The notes beneath the pieces are model-generated. The model was given only the letters and a program-made list of their open reading frames with translations. It searched no databases and was not told the DNA's origin. DNA of 46,749 bases, from NCBI GenBank assembly GCA_013177895.1, contig JABLXV010000022.1, forward strand, positions 1 to 46,749, in the 5' to 3' direction. The translations under genes were made by a program, and so were the position numbers. Every line of letters starts with the position of its first letter. Position 1 is the first letter of the stretch. This document shows positions 26,986 to 37,019 of the stretch, piece by piece. The DNA is from Brevinematales bacterium. Lineage in GTDB: Bacteria > Spirochaetota > Brevinematia > Brevinematales > GWF1-51-8.

Positions 26986-29900
26986 TTATCGGTAAAAGGT
27001 CTCCTCTCTTTTGGGCTCTCTCCGGCATATATCGCGGAATTCGCAGAGCCCGCATTTGTCTTTCGTCTCGAATCCGGCTAAGTGGATTTCAGGTTTGGAT
27101 TGATAGAAGACGGGGATTTCCTGATCGGCGTCGAAATCGCTTTTTACAGTGAACGGGGACAGATTGCCGTTTTCCATCAGCGAGGCGAGAAGCGCGATCT
27201 CCCGCTGTTTTTTATCCCATTCCGACGGGAAGTCAGCCGATTCCCCGGCGGAGGAAAATACCAGTCCGTCTTTGGCGTCGACGAACGAGAGTATGGAAAT
27301 ATAATTGAGTTCTTTAATCGCGTCCTCTTTCATTATCAGTTTCATATAGGAAGCGGCGTAAAGATAGAGTTGGAACAAGCGGAGCGGGATCTGCGAATAA
27401 TTCGCGGAATATTTCGAGACATTTCCGCTCTTATAATCGATGATCCGGTAACTATTCGCCCCGTCCCCTTTATCGATACGGTCGATCTTACCCTGAACCC
27501 TGACTTTTTTACCATGGATACTTAACTCGGAATTTTCGATACGGAATTCCAGCTTATCCGGCAGATAATTCTCACGAAGTTCCTTCTCAAACATCACGAA
27601 ATCATGCAGTGTCTTCCGGTAGAATTCGACCTCGTAGTCGAATACCATGCCGCCCGATTTACCGTTTTTACCGCTTCGCAGTGCGAGCCCTATCGCAAGG
27701 TCGAGCATCTTGTAATTCGGGAGTTCATTCATGTCGTCGTTTATTGTCGATGTTACATAGTGGAACAACACCTCATGCAGGAATATCCCTTTATAATCGT
27801 CGCGGATGGTATTTTCGGGATAAGTCTCGGGCTTCAATTCAAGGAGATACTTCATGAAGAACGCATACCGGCAGTTCCCCATTGTCTCGAGCATAGTAGC
27901 GCTGTACCCGTGTTCACTTTGGAACGTCCCGATTGCGGTATCGAGACGGGGTTTATCATCCAGAATGCCCATCGCCCGGATATCCTGCGGGAGAACGCCG
28001 GATAGAAAAGCCTCATTCTCTCTATTAATTCGCCCGGCGTATGCGGCCATATCGTCGGCATACCGTAAAAACGGCAGATTCTCCCGGAGTTCCCCGCGGA
28101 GTTCCGCGCCGAGAAACGGGTGGTGCGTCGAGATAAAGAAGCGGAGATCGTAGATTTTGAGCCATTCGCTGGTCGGGACGATATCGAATAATTTCGGGGG
28201 AAACGCCTGATCGGGTTCGCGGGGAGGTATGCTGACGATAGCTTCTTGCGGTACGCTCCGGTAAATAGTATTGAGGAAGAAGGACGGGAGATTATAGTCC
28301 CCTTTTTCACTGAAGGAATTCCGGCAGAGATAGAGATTATGAGTGGGGCGGGAGACCGCGATATAAAAATCGAAACGTTCCAGATCGGTGCGTTTTTCCT
28401 CGGTGGGTAAAATCATATTGCGGAAACGCTCGTTAAGGCGGATTCGTTCGTTCTGGTTAAGGATGGATAAGGCCGCCAGCCCGGGAAACTCGCCCTCGTT
28501 GAGGCCGGTGATAAAGACCGTATGGAAATCGGTCTCACGGAGGTCGTAGGGTGTCAGTATTTTTACGCAGTTCCCGGGGAAGATTTCATAACGGTAACGG
28601 GTTTCCTTCACGATCTCCGTAAACAGTTTATAGAGTTCGTCGAAGCTGAATTTTTCCGATTCCAGCACGCGAAGGGCGGTTTGTAACGATACCAGCAGTT
28701 TCTTCAGTTTCTGGAACGCCGTATAATCCTTAGTGACTATCCAGTATTCCGGGGAGTTTTTCAGATCGTGGTCGTCGATCGTCCTTTCCATCCCTGACGC
28801 GGCGATCAGGTTAAATAACCACGTATTGAATTCCCCGAACGTCACGTTATCTCCCGAACGGAAGCGGAATAGGAGGCCGACGAACCGGGTGAACTTATCG
28901 CGGAAATCGGTCAGACGCCGGAGTTTTTCCGATAGCCTGTCCGCGGATAAATCGTCCCCGTCGTCCGCGGGCTGATCCTTGTTTTCCAATTCCCCCCGGT
29001 AATATCCGATCTTATTGTCGATATAGGATATCCATTCGTCCTTCGTTCCCTGGTAATACTCGTGATAAAGGAATTCCGTGCCGCTCAGCGATTTCCAGTC
29101 GCGATTATGGGTATACCCGGAATTGGCGATCGACAGCAGATCGACGCTGTCCATCCCCTTGACGGCGCACCGGAAGAGATGAAGGATATATCCGATCGCG
29201 GGATTGGTACGGAGGGGCTTATCTTTCGTATAGTAGAACGGGATACCGAAATTGGTGAAAATCCCGTCGATCAGGTGGTCGTACTCCTCGGGATTGCGGA
29301 CGACGACCGCGAAATCGTTATATTCGAGGTTTCCCTGCGCCTTCAGGCGGGCGATCTCGCAGGCGATCAGTTCGATCTCACGGTATTTACCGTAGCCGTC
29401 GATTTCGTATATTTTATCTACATCGACGGGAGTTTTTGAAAATTTCAGGAACCGTTCCGCAAGCACGGAGAACGGATGATTCCCCTCGCCGATATTGATA
29501 TATTCCACATCGAAGTTTTTTTCGAACATTTTTAACGTATCGCCGATCACGGGATAATCGGTATCCGGGATCGCCATCTGTACGGGTTTCCCGCTGTTTT
29601 CGAAGGTACGAATCAGACTGCTGACAAACCCGAACTGGGCGGCGGTAAAATCGAAAAATCCGTCGAAATAGAGGGCGCTGTAACCGGCGGGCGTATCGTT
29701 CCCGATAATCTCCGACGCGGTACGGGTGTAAAGATAATAATCGTATAATCCTTTTTCGGTTAGAAGCCGCTCGTACTCGCCGTAGATGAGTTTGATATCG
29801 TGCCACTTGTCGGGGTTGCCCATCTCGTCATGGATAACGTCACGGTTCAGGATCGCCGCCGCGCGGAGTTCGAGGATGAGGGAATGGAGCATGCGGATGA

Positions 29901-30246
29901 TGCCGGGTGAGTTCTGGATATCCATGAAGTACCGGAAATCCGGAGCGCGTTTCTCGGCGATCAGCCGGATTATCAGGAATGTTTCAAAATCGCTCAACGC
30001 ATTGACCGGGTGGGATTTCCTGTAGGCGGAGTTCTCGACTGTCGCGCGGATAAATTCGTCCAGCGTAAAAACCGGACGCCCGGTAAATCCCCCGGTCGCG
30101 GCGGACAGTTTCTTGATAAATAATTCCTTCTGAAACCTGCCGGGTACGATGACTAAAGGTTCGTTATTGGATTTTAGGAGGCGCGCGGTTTCATCGATAA
30201 AACGGGCGGTTTTCCCGCTCTTAGGCTTTCCCTTGAGTATCTTCAT
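26986..30246 (-). CDS. addB: AddB-like helicase-nuclease subunit (RecB-family nuclease, Fe-S)
   Basis: A 1086-residue protein like AddB of the AddAB double-strand-break resection complex. A Walker A (Gly6...Ser-Gly-Lys-Thr13) starts an inactivated-helicase-type body. The C-terminus has the RecB-family nuclease domain with His-Glu-Val-Leu (near 845), Arg-Ile-Asp and Asp-Tyr-Lys-Ser-Gly (near 935). The AddB iron-sulfur cysteines are visible: one in Gly-Asn-Cys-Arg-Tyr (near 790) and three in Cys-Gly-Leu-Cys-x5-Cys near the C-terminus. No addA is in the window, so the partner must lie elsewhere. GGGAGAG precedes the ATG. A 100-bp gap separates it from the ABC-F gene. Confidence 0.85.
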   Translation of the reverse strand: MKILKGKPKSGKTARFIDETARLLKSNNEPLVIVPGRFQKELFIKKLSAATGGFTGRPVFTLDEFIRATVENSAYRKSHPVNALSDFETFLIIRLIAEKRAPDFRYFMDIQNSPGIIRMLHSLILELRAAAILNRDVIHDEMGNPDKWHDIKLIYGEYERLLTEKGLYDYYLYTRTASEIIGNDTPAGYSALYFDGFFDFTAAQFGFVSSLIRTFENSGKPVQMAIPDTDYPVIGDTLKMFEKNFDVEYINIGEGNHPFSVLAERFLKFSKTPVDVDKIYEIDGYGKYREIELIACEIARLKAQGNLEYNDFAVVVRNPEEYDHLIDGIFTNFGIPFYYTKDKPLRTNPAIGYILHLFRCAVKGMDSVDLLSIANSGYTHNRDWKSLSGTEFLYHEYYQGTKDEWISYIDNKIGYYRGELENKDQPADDGDDLSADRLSEKLRRLTDFRDKFTRFVGLLFRFRSGDNVTFGEFNTWLFNLIAASGMERTIDDHDLKNSPEYWIVTKDYTAFQKLKKLLVSLQTALRVLESEKFSFDELYKLFTEIVKETRYRYEIFPGNCVKILTPYDLRETDFHTVFITGLNEGEFPGLAALSILNQNERIRLNERFRNMILPTEEKRTDLERFDFYIAVSRPTHNLYLCRNSFSEKGDYNLPSFFLNTIYRSVPQEAIVSIPPREPDQAFPPKLFDIVPTSEWLKIYDLRFFISTHHPFLGAELRGELRENLPFLRYADDMAAYAGRINRENEAFLSGVLPQDIRAMGILDDKPRLDTAIGTFQSEHGYSATMLETMGNCRYAFFMKYLLELKPETYPENTIRDDYKGIFLHEVLFHYVTSTINDDMNELPNYKMLDLAIGLALRSGKNGKSGGMVFDYEVEFYRKTLHDFVMFEKELRENYLPDKLEFRIENSELSIHGKKVRVQGKIDRIDKGDGANSYRIIDYKSGNVSKYSANYSQIPLRLFQLYLYAASYMKLIMKEDAIKELNYISILSFVDAKDGLVFSSAGESADFPSEWDKKQREIALLASLMENGNLSPFTVKSDFDADQEIPVFYQSKPEIHLAGFETKDKCGLCEFRDICRREPKREETFYR

Positions 30247-32635: not shown

Positions 32636-33847
32636 CTATTTTACTTTCTTTTGATACCAGCGGGAAATATTCAATAACAATACAGGGAATACGGCCTGCG
32701 GGTTCGTATTCCCATACCGCATTTTTCTCCAAACTGTCTCAATCTCGCCGCAAATTTCCTGCAGTTCCGCCGAGTTGCAATTCCGTATTAATGGGATAGG
32801 CAGATCGGCGTATACCTGATCGAGAAACGGTTTATAATCTATCTGCCTGAGAAATTGCTGGCGCAGTATCTGAAGATTTCTGAAATAATCGATCAGCTCC
32901 TCGAGAAAATGGGTCTGCATATCGGGTACTTCGTCCGAGTTCAAAGCATCGATAAAACGGAACAGTTCGTATCCGTGCTGCACCTGCGGCGCGATTTTCG
33001 CGAAAAATTCCCTCACATTGTTCTGGCGTTTCATCCTGTACTGGTAAACCACGTCGCTCATCAGTTCGATTGTAGACTGGTGATTGCCGGGGTTTTCCCC
33101 GAATATCGTCTTAACCGACTGCGGGGAGAGACGGTCGAATTTGATCACGATACTCCGCGAGAGGATTGTCGGCAGGATTTGCGATAGTTCCGTTACCGTC
33201 AGGATAATGAGAGACTGCGAGGGAGGTTCCTCGAACAGCTTGAGCGCGGAGTTCTGCGCCTGTACGGTGGCGTTCTCGAATTCGCCGATGAGGGTGATTT
33301 TACGGCGACCCGACGCCTTTTGGGAGTGAAAATCGATAGTCTCGCGGATAAAATCGATGGGGATTTTCTGCTTCTTCGTCAGTTCGTCCGACGCGCGTTC
33401 TATTTTTCCAGCGAAGTCCTTATCGTCCATCAGGCGCTTATAGATACTGTTATTCAGAATTTCAAATTCCAGTTCTTCGCGGAGTACGGAAAATTCTATC
33501 TTCTTATCTTTGATTTTATCGGGAAGTTCCCCGAGGAAGATGGATTGAGAAATACGGCCGAGCAGGTATTTTAGATAACGGATAAGCTGTTCGAGTAATT
33601 TTTCATTCGCGATATTTTTCAGGAAGAACCTTGTTTTCAGGGAGAAATTATCGTTGCGGTAAAACAGGAAATCGGGCGAGAGAAAGGGGTCTTTTTCGAG
33701 GATATTCCGGGATAATAATAATCCCGCGGTAAACTTCCCGCATCCGGGGTTTCCGTGAAAAATCAGGGTTCTCCCCTGAAAATCGTCATTCAGCAGCTTT
33801 TGGAGCAGAATCGCGGGGTGTTTTTGGCCGATTAAATGTTTCTGCAT
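32636..33847 (-). CDS. holB: DNA polymerase III delta'-like clamp-loader subunit
   Basis: A 403-residue AAA+ clamp-loader-type protein. Residues 1-60 align with the delta'/gamma start (Leu-Ile-Gly-Gln-Lys...Phe-His-Gly-Asn-Pro-Gly-Cys-Gly-Lys). The Walker A Lys is followed by Phe rather than Thr/Ser, fitting delta', which does not hydrolyse ATP. The segment Ala-Gln-Asn-Ser-Ala-Leu-Lys-Leu-Phe-Glu-Glu-Pro-Pro (near 195) is a hallmark, and Leu-Ser-Arg-Ser stands at the SRC position. The usual Cys4 zinc module is absent; a Lys-rich insert of about 80 residues occupies that region. It follows recJ by 9 bp. Confidence 0.82.
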   Translation of the reverse strand: MQKHLIGQKHPAILLQKLLNDDFQGRTLIFHGNPGCGKFTAGLLLSRNILEKDPFLSPDFLFYRNDNFSLKTRFFLKNIANEKLLEQLIRYLKYLLGRISQSIFLGELPDKIKDKKIEFSVLREELEFEILNNSIYKRLMDDKDFAGKIERASDELTKKQKIPIDFIRETIDFHSQKASGRRKITLIGEFENATVQAQNSALKLFEEPPSQSLIILTVTELSQILPTILSRSIVIKFDRLSPQSVKTIFGENPGNHQSTIELMSDVVYQYRMKRQNNVREFFAKIAPQVQHGYELFRFIDALNSDEVPDMQTHFLEELIDYFRNLQILRQQFLRQIDYKPFLDQVYADLPIPLIRNCNSAELQEICGEIETVWRKMRYGNTNPQAVFPVLLLNISRWYQKKVK

Positions 33848-33856
33848 ATGCCGACC

Positions 33857-36091
33857 CTATCTTCCTTTTATATCCGTCATTACCAGGCGGGCTTCGGACA
33901 TCCCGTTATAGGTATTGATCTCGGGATAACCGGCAATATCGAATGCGGAAAAATCCTTCAGAAGCGCGGAGATTTTCTTGGAGGCGCTCCATGCGACCAT
34001 TTTTATGCTCGATTCGCCTTTCTTGAGCGTGAGTATCGCGTGATCGTTTTCCTTACCCATATAGAACACGTCGGCGATACGGACATTCTCGATCAGGTAA
34101 TTAGGTATTTCGTTCCCGTTGCCCACAGGCTCCAAGATATTTTCAAGATAACGGATATTATTCATATTAAGCTCGGAAAAATCGGGCAGAACCGCGTCGA
34201 TAAGGATTTCCTCTTTCAGGATATCGTTCTCATGCAGGGCGATGTATTCCTTAGCCTTGACCTTGAATTCGTCGAGTTTCTCGCGGTGAATAGTAAACCC
34301 GCCGGCATATTTATGCCCGCCGTATTGGGCGAAGTAGTCCGACATACTCTCGAGCATCTTGACAACCTCAAACTCCCCGCTCACACGCATCGACCCCGTG
34401 CATTCGCCGTTCTCGAGGGAGATAATAACGGCGGGTTTCTGGTACTCGTGCGTGATTTTATTCGCGAGCAGTCCCGTGATACCCTTAGGGATCTTTTCCG
34501 ACGCGAGTATTAAAATTTTATCATCGTTCAATTTGTCTGCAATGATAGTCTGGCGGACATATTCCTCCGACACCTTCAGGAGGTTTTTCCGCTGGCCGTC
34601 CTTTTTCACAATCTCTTTAGCGAGCATTTCGCCCTCGTTTACTTTAGTACTGATCAGGAGTTCCGCGCTCAGGCTCCCGGCGCCCATGCGTCCCGGCGAG
34701 TTCAGTAACGGCGCGATATTCCACCCGACCTGCTTCGAGGTGATATTCTCCAACGGGAGCTGGGTTTCACGCAGAAGGGAAATCAGTCCGGTGGGGGCGT
34801 GCGCGAAGAGCTTCAACCCGTTTTTTACGATATTCCGGTTCTCACCGGTAAGCGGCATAATATCGGCGACAGTCCCGATTGCCGCGAGGGGAAGGTACTC
34901 GTTAACCATCTCGATAAAGCGGGAGTTCCTGCCGATCAGGAGACGGCGGTATACCTCGGAACAGACCTCGCAATCGGCAATACTGCGGTGCAGACTCGCG
35001 GGGTCGGGATAATGCCCGAGATGATTGGAAATAGTGATAAGCTTATGGTCTTTTGCTTTTTTCAGCATGACCTTGGACATTTTCAACGTATCTTCCATCG
35101 GGTTGGCGATCTGAGAAAGGCCGGCCTTCTTTAACTGATGCTGGAGAAATTTCAGGTCGAAATCGATCAGATTATGCCCGATCATCTTCCTGTCCCCGAT
35201 AAAATCGAGCATCTCCCTGAGAGCCGTCTCGATAGGAATTCCGTCCTTCTCAAGTACTTCCTGCGTGATACCTGTAATATTGACTATTTCCTGTGAAAGC
35301 TGTTTGTTTATTTTGATCAGTTTCTGGAATCGGTCGACAATAACTCCGTTTGTGACCTTTAACGCGCCGATTTCGATAATCTCATCGTTATGGGGGTTGA
35401 ATCCCGTAGTCTCGAGGTCGATAAAAATCAGTTCCTTATCGAAGTACTCGGGAAGCTCCTTTTTCTCGATCATAGCCCACGCGGTTTTAAAAGCGACACC
35501 CGCCCCGCTCAGCGAACGATACGGGAAACTATCCTCCGCGACTTTAGGATTGATGACCGCGTAGGCATCCGGCAAACGGTCTCTTGGCTCGTGGTGGTCG
35601 GTGATAATCACAGTCATACCGAGTTTATTCGCGAGGTCGACTTCGTTTAAAGCGGTAATCCCGCAATCGACGGTGATGAGAAGCTGTATCTCGTTGACCG
35701 CCGCCCATTCGACCGATTCCTTCGACAAGCCGTAGCTTTCGAATCCCTCGGGGATACGGTAGATCACCTGCGCGCCGAGTTTTTCAAGGAGTTTATACAT
35801 AATCGCGGTCGCGGTAACCCCGTCCACGTCGCGGTCTCCGAATATCAGGATTCCCTTTTTATTACGGATGGTTTCTTCGATTTTAAGGATCGCCTTGTGC
35901 ATGTCCCGGAAAAGGAAGGGATTATGAAGGTTGAGGAAATTCGGGTTCAGGTATTCCATCGCCCCGATATAACTATCGATATTCCTGTTGTTGAGGACGG
36001 ATAGGATAAATTCCGGCAGAGAAACGTTCTGTTTCAGTTCGCGGATCCGGTCGCGGTTGGGGGAAAGGATTTTCCATTCGAGTTCTCTCAT
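33857..36091 (-). CDS. recJ: RecJ exonuclease with inserted DnaQ-type (DEDDh) exonuclease domain
   Basis: 744 residues; ordinary RecJ is about 550-580. The RecJ body has Gly-Asp-Arg-Asp-Val-Asp-Gly (85-91), Val-Asp-Cys-Gly (141-144), Thr-Asp-His-His (164-167), Gly-Thr-Val-Ala-Asp-Ile-Met-Pro-Leu (406-414), DHHA1 Gly-Gly-His-Lys-Tyr-Ala-Gly-Gly (591-598) and an OB-like C-terminus. Between about 215 and 390, inside the DHH domain, is an extra domain with every DEDDh residue: Asp225, Glu227, Asp312, His368, Asp373 (proofreading-exonuclease type). The family's known activities predict 5'-3' ssDNA degradation plus a 3'-5' exonuclease in one chain; joint activity is inferred. It lies 10 bp from pyrB and 9 bp from holB, with no frameshift. 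Confidence 0.93.
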   Translation of the reverse strand: MRELEWKILSPNRDRIRELKQNVSLPEFILSVLNNRNIDSYIGAMEYLNPNFLNLHNPFLFRDMHKAILKIEETIRNKKGILIFGDRDVDGVTATAIMYKLLEKLGAQVIYRIPEGFESYGLSKESVEWAAVNEIQLLITVDCGITALNEVDLANKLGMTVIITDHHEPRDRLPDAYAVINPKVAEDSFPYRSLSGAGVAFKTAWAMIEKKELPEYFDKELIFIDLETTGFNPHNDEIIEIGALKVTNGVIVDRFQKLIKINKQLSQEIVNITGITQEVLEKDGIPIETALREMLDFIGDRKMIGHNLIDFDLKFLQHQLKKAGLSQIANPMEDTLKMSKVMLKKAKDHKLITISNHLGHYPDPASLHRSIADCEVCSEVYRRLLIGRNSRFIEMVNEYLPLAAIGTVADIMPLTGENRNIVKNGLKLFAHAPTGLISLLRETQLPLENITSKQVGWNIAPLLNSPGRMGAGSLSAELLISTKVNEGEMLAKEIVKKDGQRKNLLKVSEEYVRQTIIADKLNDDKILILASEKIPKGITGLLANKITHEYQKPAVIISLENGECTGSMRVSGEFEVVKMLESMSDYFAQYGGHKYAGGFTIHREKLDEFKVKAKEYIALHENDILKEEILIDAVLPDFSELNMNNIRYLENILEPVGNGNEIPNYLIENVRIADVFYMGKENDHAILTLKKGESSIKMVAWSASKKISALLKDFSAFDIAGYPEINTYNGMSEARLVMTDIKGR

Positions 36092-36101
36092 CCGGCCGTA
36101 C

Positions 36102-37019
36102 CTACCGATTCTCTAGCAGAATGGACAGGAGCGCCATTCTGATATAGAGACCGTTATGCGCCTGACGGAAATAAGCGGCGCGGGGGTCTTTATCGACTTC
36201 GTACTTTATCTCGTCCACACGCGGCAAAGGGTGCATGACAATCGAACTTTTCGGCAGTATATCCAATATCTCATTATCGATAATATAAATCCCGTGCGCC
36301 TTCTCATATTCGTCAATAGACGCGAACCGTTCCCTCTGGACTCTCGTCTGGTAGATAACATCCACCTTACCGGCGACCTCCCGGAGATCGGAATTTTCCT
36401 CATAATCCACCCCGTGCTTCTCCAGATGTTCCTTGATATCGGCGCCCATCTTAACATTCGGGGGAGAGACGAAGTACATTTTTATACCGTTGTATTTCGC
36501 GAGAAGGTACGCGAGCGAACGAACGGTGCGTCCGTTTGCAAGATCGCCCACCATCGCGATTTTCGTCCCGTCGATATGCCCGATTTCCTTCTTGATGGTA
36601 AATATATCGAGAAGCGACTGCGTGGGGTGCTGTCCGGCGCCGTCTCCGGCGTTGATAATGGGGATTTCGCTGACTTCGCTGGCACGGTGCGCCGCGCCGG
36701 CCTCGTGATGACGCAGGACGATCACGTCGCCGTACCCGCTGAGGACGCGTATCGTATCCTCGAGAGTTTCGCCCTTCGCCGCCGAGGAAAAGTTCTGCGC
36801 GTTTTCCGTCGACGCCACGCTACCGCCCAGACGTATCATCGCCGATTCGAACGACAGACGCGTGCGGGTGGACGGCTCGTAAAACAGGGAGATCATTATT
36901 TTATTGGTCAGAGTTTTTACCTGGGTGGAGAGTTTTTCCATGATATGCGCGACATCAAAGAGCTCTTCCAGCGATTCTTTTGTGAATTGCTGAGATTCGA
37001 TGACATGCTTGAGTTTCAT
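36102..37019 (-). CDS. pyrB: Aspartate carbamoyltransferase catalytic chain
   Basis: A 305-residue enzyme joining carbamoyl phosphate and aspartate in pyrimidine synthesis. Family motifs: carbamoyl-phosphate-binding Ser-Thr-Arg-Thr-Arg (in Phe-Tyr-Glu-Pro-Ser-Thr-Arg-Thr-Arg, near 49-57), His-Pro-Thr-Gln (near 131-134), and His-Pro-Leu-Pro-Arg (near 263-267). Length is normal. No regulatory pyrI is adjacent. GGAGGGG precedes the ATG. It is first in a tight trio with recJ and holB, so nucleotide synthesis and DNA repair/replication genes share a transcript; no shared function is implied. Confidence 0.96.
   Translation of the reverse strand: MKLKHVIESQQFTKESLEELFDVAHIMEKLSTQVKTLTNKIMISLFYEPSTRTRLSFESAMIRLGGSVASTENAQNFSSAAKGETLEDTIRVLSGYGDVIVLRHHEAGAAHRASEVSEIPIINAGDGAGQHPTQSLLDIFTIKKEIGHIDGTKIAMVGDLANGRTVRSLAYLLAKYNGIKMYFVSPPNVKMGADIKEHLEKHGVDYEENSDLREVAGKVDVIYQTRVQRERFASIDEYEKAHGIYIIDNEILDILPKSSIVMHPLPRVDEIKYEVDKDPRAAYFRQAHNGLYIRMALLSILLENR

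Follow-up and report, generated by a model that had tools for sequence, protein, structure and literature searches.

The window analysed here (46,749 nucleotides, contig JABLXV010000022.1 of the Brevinematales bacterium assembly GCA_013177895.1) carries on its minus strand a recJ gene that forms one unbroken frame of 744 codons and encodes a single polypeptide (Table 1). In family f1 of Brevinematales, to which the window's own genome (G000) belongs, recJ is followed directly by holB, as it is in two genomes of family f4 (G009 and G011); in f2 the two genes are linked with other genes between them, and the pyrB-recJ order is common to f1, f2 and f3. An AddB-like protein, a further recombination nuclease, is encoded three genes downstream of recJ.

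Table 1. Features of the recJ locus, in positions of the window.
Feature	Coordinates	Strand	Basis or remark
AddB-like protein	26986-30246	(-)	ADDB_N, UvrD_C, PDDEXK
holB-like clamp-loader delta' gene, directly downstream of recJ	32636..33847	(-)	Pfam DNA_pol3_delta2, E 3.3e-20
recJ with embedded DEDDh exonuclease, 744 aa	33857..36091	(-)	ATG at 36091; stop end 33857
RecJ OB domain (RecJ_OB), residues 631-740	33872..34201	(-)	Pfam
DHHA1 domain, residues 524-618, GGH motif 591-593	34238..34522	(-)	Pfam
RecJ motif IV IGTVAD, residues 405-410 (metal ligand D410)	34862..34879	(-)	shortly past insert
Embedded PolC/DnaQ-type DEDDh 3'-5' exonuclease domain (predicted), residues ~219-388	34928..35437	(-)	RNase_T profile and fold match
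RecJ DHH N-terminal part, residues 81-214	35450..35851	(-)	Pfam DHH and ligand conservation
pyrB (aspartate carbamoyltransferase), directly upstream of recJ	36102..37019	(-)	Pfam, synteny

Against the NCBIfam RecJ equivalog TIGR00644 the protein scores 481.6 bits, above the cut-off of 396.9, in an alignment that runs across the insert. Motif I (D86/D88/D90), motif II (D142) and motif III (DHH, 165-167) are all present, and the metal ligands D86, D88, D90, D142, H166 and D410 do not vary among the 11 fused proteins compared. The insert lies between motifs III and IV, leaving one metal ligand (D410) on its C-terminal side, so that H166 and D410 are 244 residues apart, compared with 64 residues between the corresponding ligands H159 and D223 of Deinococcus radiodurans RecJ (PMC4846377); the junction in unfused RecJs of other phyla measures 7-11 residues. 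The RNase_T profile (PF00929) matches residues 222-381 over its full length (profile positions 1-164 of 164, E 7.5e-31, 108 bits against a cut-off of 24), and the catalytic set D225, E227, D312, H368 and D373 is conserved in 11/11 fused sequences checked. Among named NCBIfam families the PolC exonucleases are the best relatives of the insert (E 6e-41), and in the PDB it is the PolC exonuclease 2p1j. The original prediction, made from the letters of the window, thus holds for the uninterrupted frame, the complete RecJ motifs, the DEDDh set, the order DHH, RNase_T, DHHA1 and the adjoining clamp-loader gene; it also placed the insert at the right site, and its limits of about 215-390 are refined to ~219-388, with D410 following the insert.

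An AlphaFold2 model of the window RecJ, built with 20 sequences, has a pLDDT of 92.2 and a pTM of 0.91. In Foldseek searches with this model the RecJ frame matches RecJ structures (8y30, 5f56), and the insert, modelled with confidence as a lobe, matches PolC, DnaQ and epsilon structures of the DEDDh fold (2p1j, 8h18 and 2gui; TMt 0.75-0.88). Superposed on the PolC exonuclease 2p1j, the insert gives an rmsd of 1.6 over 142 columns at 41% identity. Model and residues together show the window RecJ as one chain with two complete active sites in confidently predicted lobes.

The draft genome that contains the window is split into 112 contigs, the window being one of them, and a false join of two genes by assembly or sequencing had been named as an alternative. 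The fusion junction is present in 13/13 Brevinematales genomes, with the frame unbroken in 12, and the fused RecJs of the other genomes are 44-95% identical to the window protein. Two further lineages, represented by G029 and G041, also carry the intact fusion, and across the 12 other Brevinematales genomes and these two the same junction is kept down to 34% identity. This conservation refutes an assembly join, which is so improbable that it can be set aside. The insert evolves under purifying selection (dN/dS 0.09-0.26 among pairs with unsaturated dS). In G002 (L004/L022), the closest relative (95% identity, draft 73% complete), recJ has a frameshift inside the exonuclease domain, reflecting either a draft error or a recent inactivation.

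The insert has a wider history in Spirochaetota. Among 76 RecJ sequences extracted from the phylum, 73 have an insert at the identical site, of 34 to 178 residues, and the remaining three (G019, G025 and G030) have 8-11 residues there, like other phyla. The DEDDh set is present in only 14 of the inserts. For the best-sampled group lacking these residues, labelled treponeme-like as a working name for a sequence group rather than a taxonomic assignment, comparison of the insert with the intact insert after removal of the flanks gave an hhalign E of ~5e-6 (probability 83-86%). The treponeme-like RecJ model has a pLDDT of 88 and its insert is predicted to fold, with the PolC exonuclease and RNase T as the first Foldseek matches, although the E-values are modest (4e-3) and the TM-scores lie at 0.4-0.6. 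Both lines, the profile similarity and the predicted fold, support reading this insert as a decayed exonuclease. A Brachyspira-like group (again a working label for sequences) presents a weak case for homology, its insert giving a non-significant hhalign E of 0.015 without flanks, although full-length alignments run through it. For the shortest inserts (families f5 and f8 and the f28-like group) profile comparison did not demonstrate homology to the exonuclease, and the shared site alone speaks for a common origin.

A tree of the RecJ core (FastTree branch supports) splits cleanly into sequences with the insert and sequences lacking it. G029 and G041 fall with a decayed group (support 0.94) and not with Brevinematales, so that decayed lineages lie between the two intact ones. 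Compared with the standalone DnaQs of Spirochaetota, the intact inserts form one clade (support 0.84). The simplest history is a single ancient insertion into the RecJ of Spirochaetota followed by repeated decay. Spirochaetota would thereby show, across the phylum, how a catalytic domain was inserted into an enzyme and repeatedly lost its activity, with an insert still retained in place.

The presence of the DEDDh domain raises the question of proofreading, which in DnaE can be intrinsic to the PHP domain. Gene absences in what follows are read from family searches. In 12/13 Brevinematales genomes the RNase_T family is represented by the RecJ domain alone, and G003 has one further member. A general argument that the only DEDDh domain of a genome must be its proofreader was rejected for the order as a whole: most fused genomes have an intact PHP site, and 50/150 sampled Spirochaetota genomes have no RNase_T match at all. 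In the window's genome and most of its relatives DnaE retains the full set of nine PHP ligands (HHDHEHCDH), so the PHP domain can proofread and the window's genome does not need the fused domain for that role. A second DnaE-like gene is found in this genome in two pieces (G000:C54:9072-10337 and G000:C55:3-1586), apparently split by a contig break; its counterpart in G001, which like G002 is of the same genus as the window's genome, is a 1035-aa frame.

Family f4 (G006, G009, G011 and G012), whose genomes are incomplete drafts (in descending order 95, 95, 89 and 79% complete), presents a different picture. Its DnaE (L135-L138, in G009, G012, G006 and G011) has lost 8/9 PHP ligands in 4/4 genomes and retains the polymerase motif PDIDIDF, indicating a probable family-wide loss of intrinsic proofreading. 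RNase_T is matched only in RecJ in all four genomes, PF13482 gives a weak match on the same RecJ domain and nowhere else, and a profile search of the four genomes found no match to PF01612 (DNA_pol_A_exo1). The embedded domain is thus the sole match to three DnaQ-fold Pfam families beside a dead PHP (4/4 genomes), which points to proofreading by this domain and makes it the leading candidate proofreader in f4. Nor, by the lack of a DNA_pol_A_exo1 match, does f4 have a DNA polymerase I with a recognisable 3'-5' domain.

Among 90 sampled DnaEs, the PHP site is kept in 30/30 genomes in which no RNase_T protein was counted; one of the 30, G100, belongs to a family in which the other members give only a marginal RNase_T match, in a 925-aa frame. 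The PHP losses fall in f4, G028 and G120, and each of these has a protein of the RNase_T family. These three events of co-occurrence between PHP loss and a DEDDh protein are consistent with substitution and are not statistically decisive. In G028 (L134) and G120 (L207) the inactive DnaE PHP is accompanied by a non-RecJ RNase_T protein, and G028 gave no RecJ match at all. Apparent PHP losses in G053, G059 and G068 were discarded as artefacts of wrong reading frames. A clamp-binding motif of the Q-x-x-L-x-F type was sought in 11 fused proteins and none is conserved, so a coupling of fused RecJ to the replisome would rest only on gene order and the absence of alternatives.

RecJ degrades single-stranded DNA in the 5'-3' direction, and DEDDh sites remove 3' nucleotides. 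With two intact, well-known active sites in one chain, opposite polarities are expected, and the best reading of the window protein is a putative two-headed nuclease in which the DHH/DHHA1 channel would take nucleotides off single-stranded DNA 5'-3' and the embedded DEDDh lobe would take them off 3' ends, both sites presumably working in the same protein on gaps or forks. All Brevinematales members tested have exonuclease VII, so 3'-5' activity on single-stranded DNA is not otherwise missing. The probable account is that RecJ acquired a PolC/epsilon-type DEDDh exonuclease in a single event early in Spirochaetota, at a point between its motifs III and IV. Brevinematales and the two other sampled genomes would have kept this domain intact, and in most other Spirochaetota it would have become catalytically dead and usually shrunken; the two activities are assigned from residues and families. 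If this account is correct, one polypeptide carries two exonucleases of opposite polarity. The earlier idea of a bidirectional trimming machine stands with respect to the single polypeptide, and misses both the age of the insertion, decayed in most lineages, and the situation of f4, where the sole DnaQ-fold exonuclease found occurs beside a DnaE with a dead PHP and suggests proofreading.

Other explanations differ from this account in the function they give to the insert. An embedded domain that is mainly structural or protein-binding, with catalysis secondary, would account for the persistence of dead remnants throughout Spirochaetota, inserts that lack the catalytic residues being present at the same site in nearly all other RecJs examined and the treponeme-like one being predicted to fold. 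It is unlikely, the intact group retaining all five catalytic residues and purifying selection on the insert, neither of which binding alone would demand. A role confined to repair, with 5'-3' and 3'-5' excision serving mismatch repair or gap processing and no replicative proofreading even in f4, is a serious contender that falls somewhat short of an even chance. It agrees with the function of RecJ as a single-stranded DNA repair nuclease in known bacteria (PMC4846377) and with the intact PHP site of the window's genome and most fused genomes, where proofreading does not call for the fused domain. It also implies that replication in f4 either lacks proofreading or relies on an exonuclease that has gone unrecognised, and against it stand the lack of any other DnaQ-fold protein in f4 by three Pfam families and the retention of PHP by every sampled genome devoid of RNase_T. 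The two-site nuclease may thus have acquired an additional task in f4: tentatively, and with a little less confidence than the repair-only role, its DEDDh domain is proposed to proofread for DnaE during replication, so that a recombination nuclease of 5'-3' polarity would have come to carry replication fidelity after PHP loss. A 2026 survey of bacterial polymerases, using the same PHP signature as here, found some bacteria with a dead PHP and no recognised DnaQ, named these cases as open and suggested noncanonical proofreaders (PMC12926913); f4 provides a concrete, testable candidate for this question.

No description of a RecJ with an embedded DnaQ/DEDDh exonuclease was found among the titles and abstracts listed in searches of open-licence papers. 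Beyond Spirochaetota the search covered plasmid and phage collections, in which the best of the matches listed span ~1.3-1.8 kb, too short for the fusion, and one contig pattern scan, which returned close relatives only. Within this coverage, the architecture may be undescribed.

Several known systems share parts of this architecture. Bacterial RecJ (TIGR00644; structures from D. radiodurans, Thermus thermophilus and Staphylococcus aureus) has the same DHH, DHHA1 and OB elements and the same metal ligands, whereas in the window protein motifs III and IV have ~180 additional residues between them, which hold the second nuclease. The epsilon/DnaQ proofreading subunit has the same DEDDh fold and residues, and the embedded domain of f4 stands where epsilon would be expected; unlike epsilon, the fused RecJ has no recognised clamp-binding motif, and its partnership with DnaE is only a candidate one. 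Among RecJ-fold proteins of the replication fork, the Cdc45/archaeal GAN family likewise has a DHH-domain insertion (residues 118-197 in human Cdc45; PMC4873980), but that of Cdc45 is helical and not a nuclease, and the likeness concerns insertion into the DHH domain as such. DinG of S. aureus and Bacillus subtilis has an N-terminal 3'-5' exonuclease (PMC12345164, PMC12525004) and so likewise combines a DnaQ-type 3'-5' exonuclease with a DNA repair enzyme in a single chain, but by terminal fusion to a helicase rather than by insertion into a nuclease of predicted opposite polarity. The closest relative of the insert in both sequence and fold is the PolC exonuclease, whose DEDDh domain is likewise inserted into another domain, PHP (PMC3919608); in PolC the chain is that of a polymerase, whereas here the host is RecJ and the chain carries two nucleases and no polymerase.
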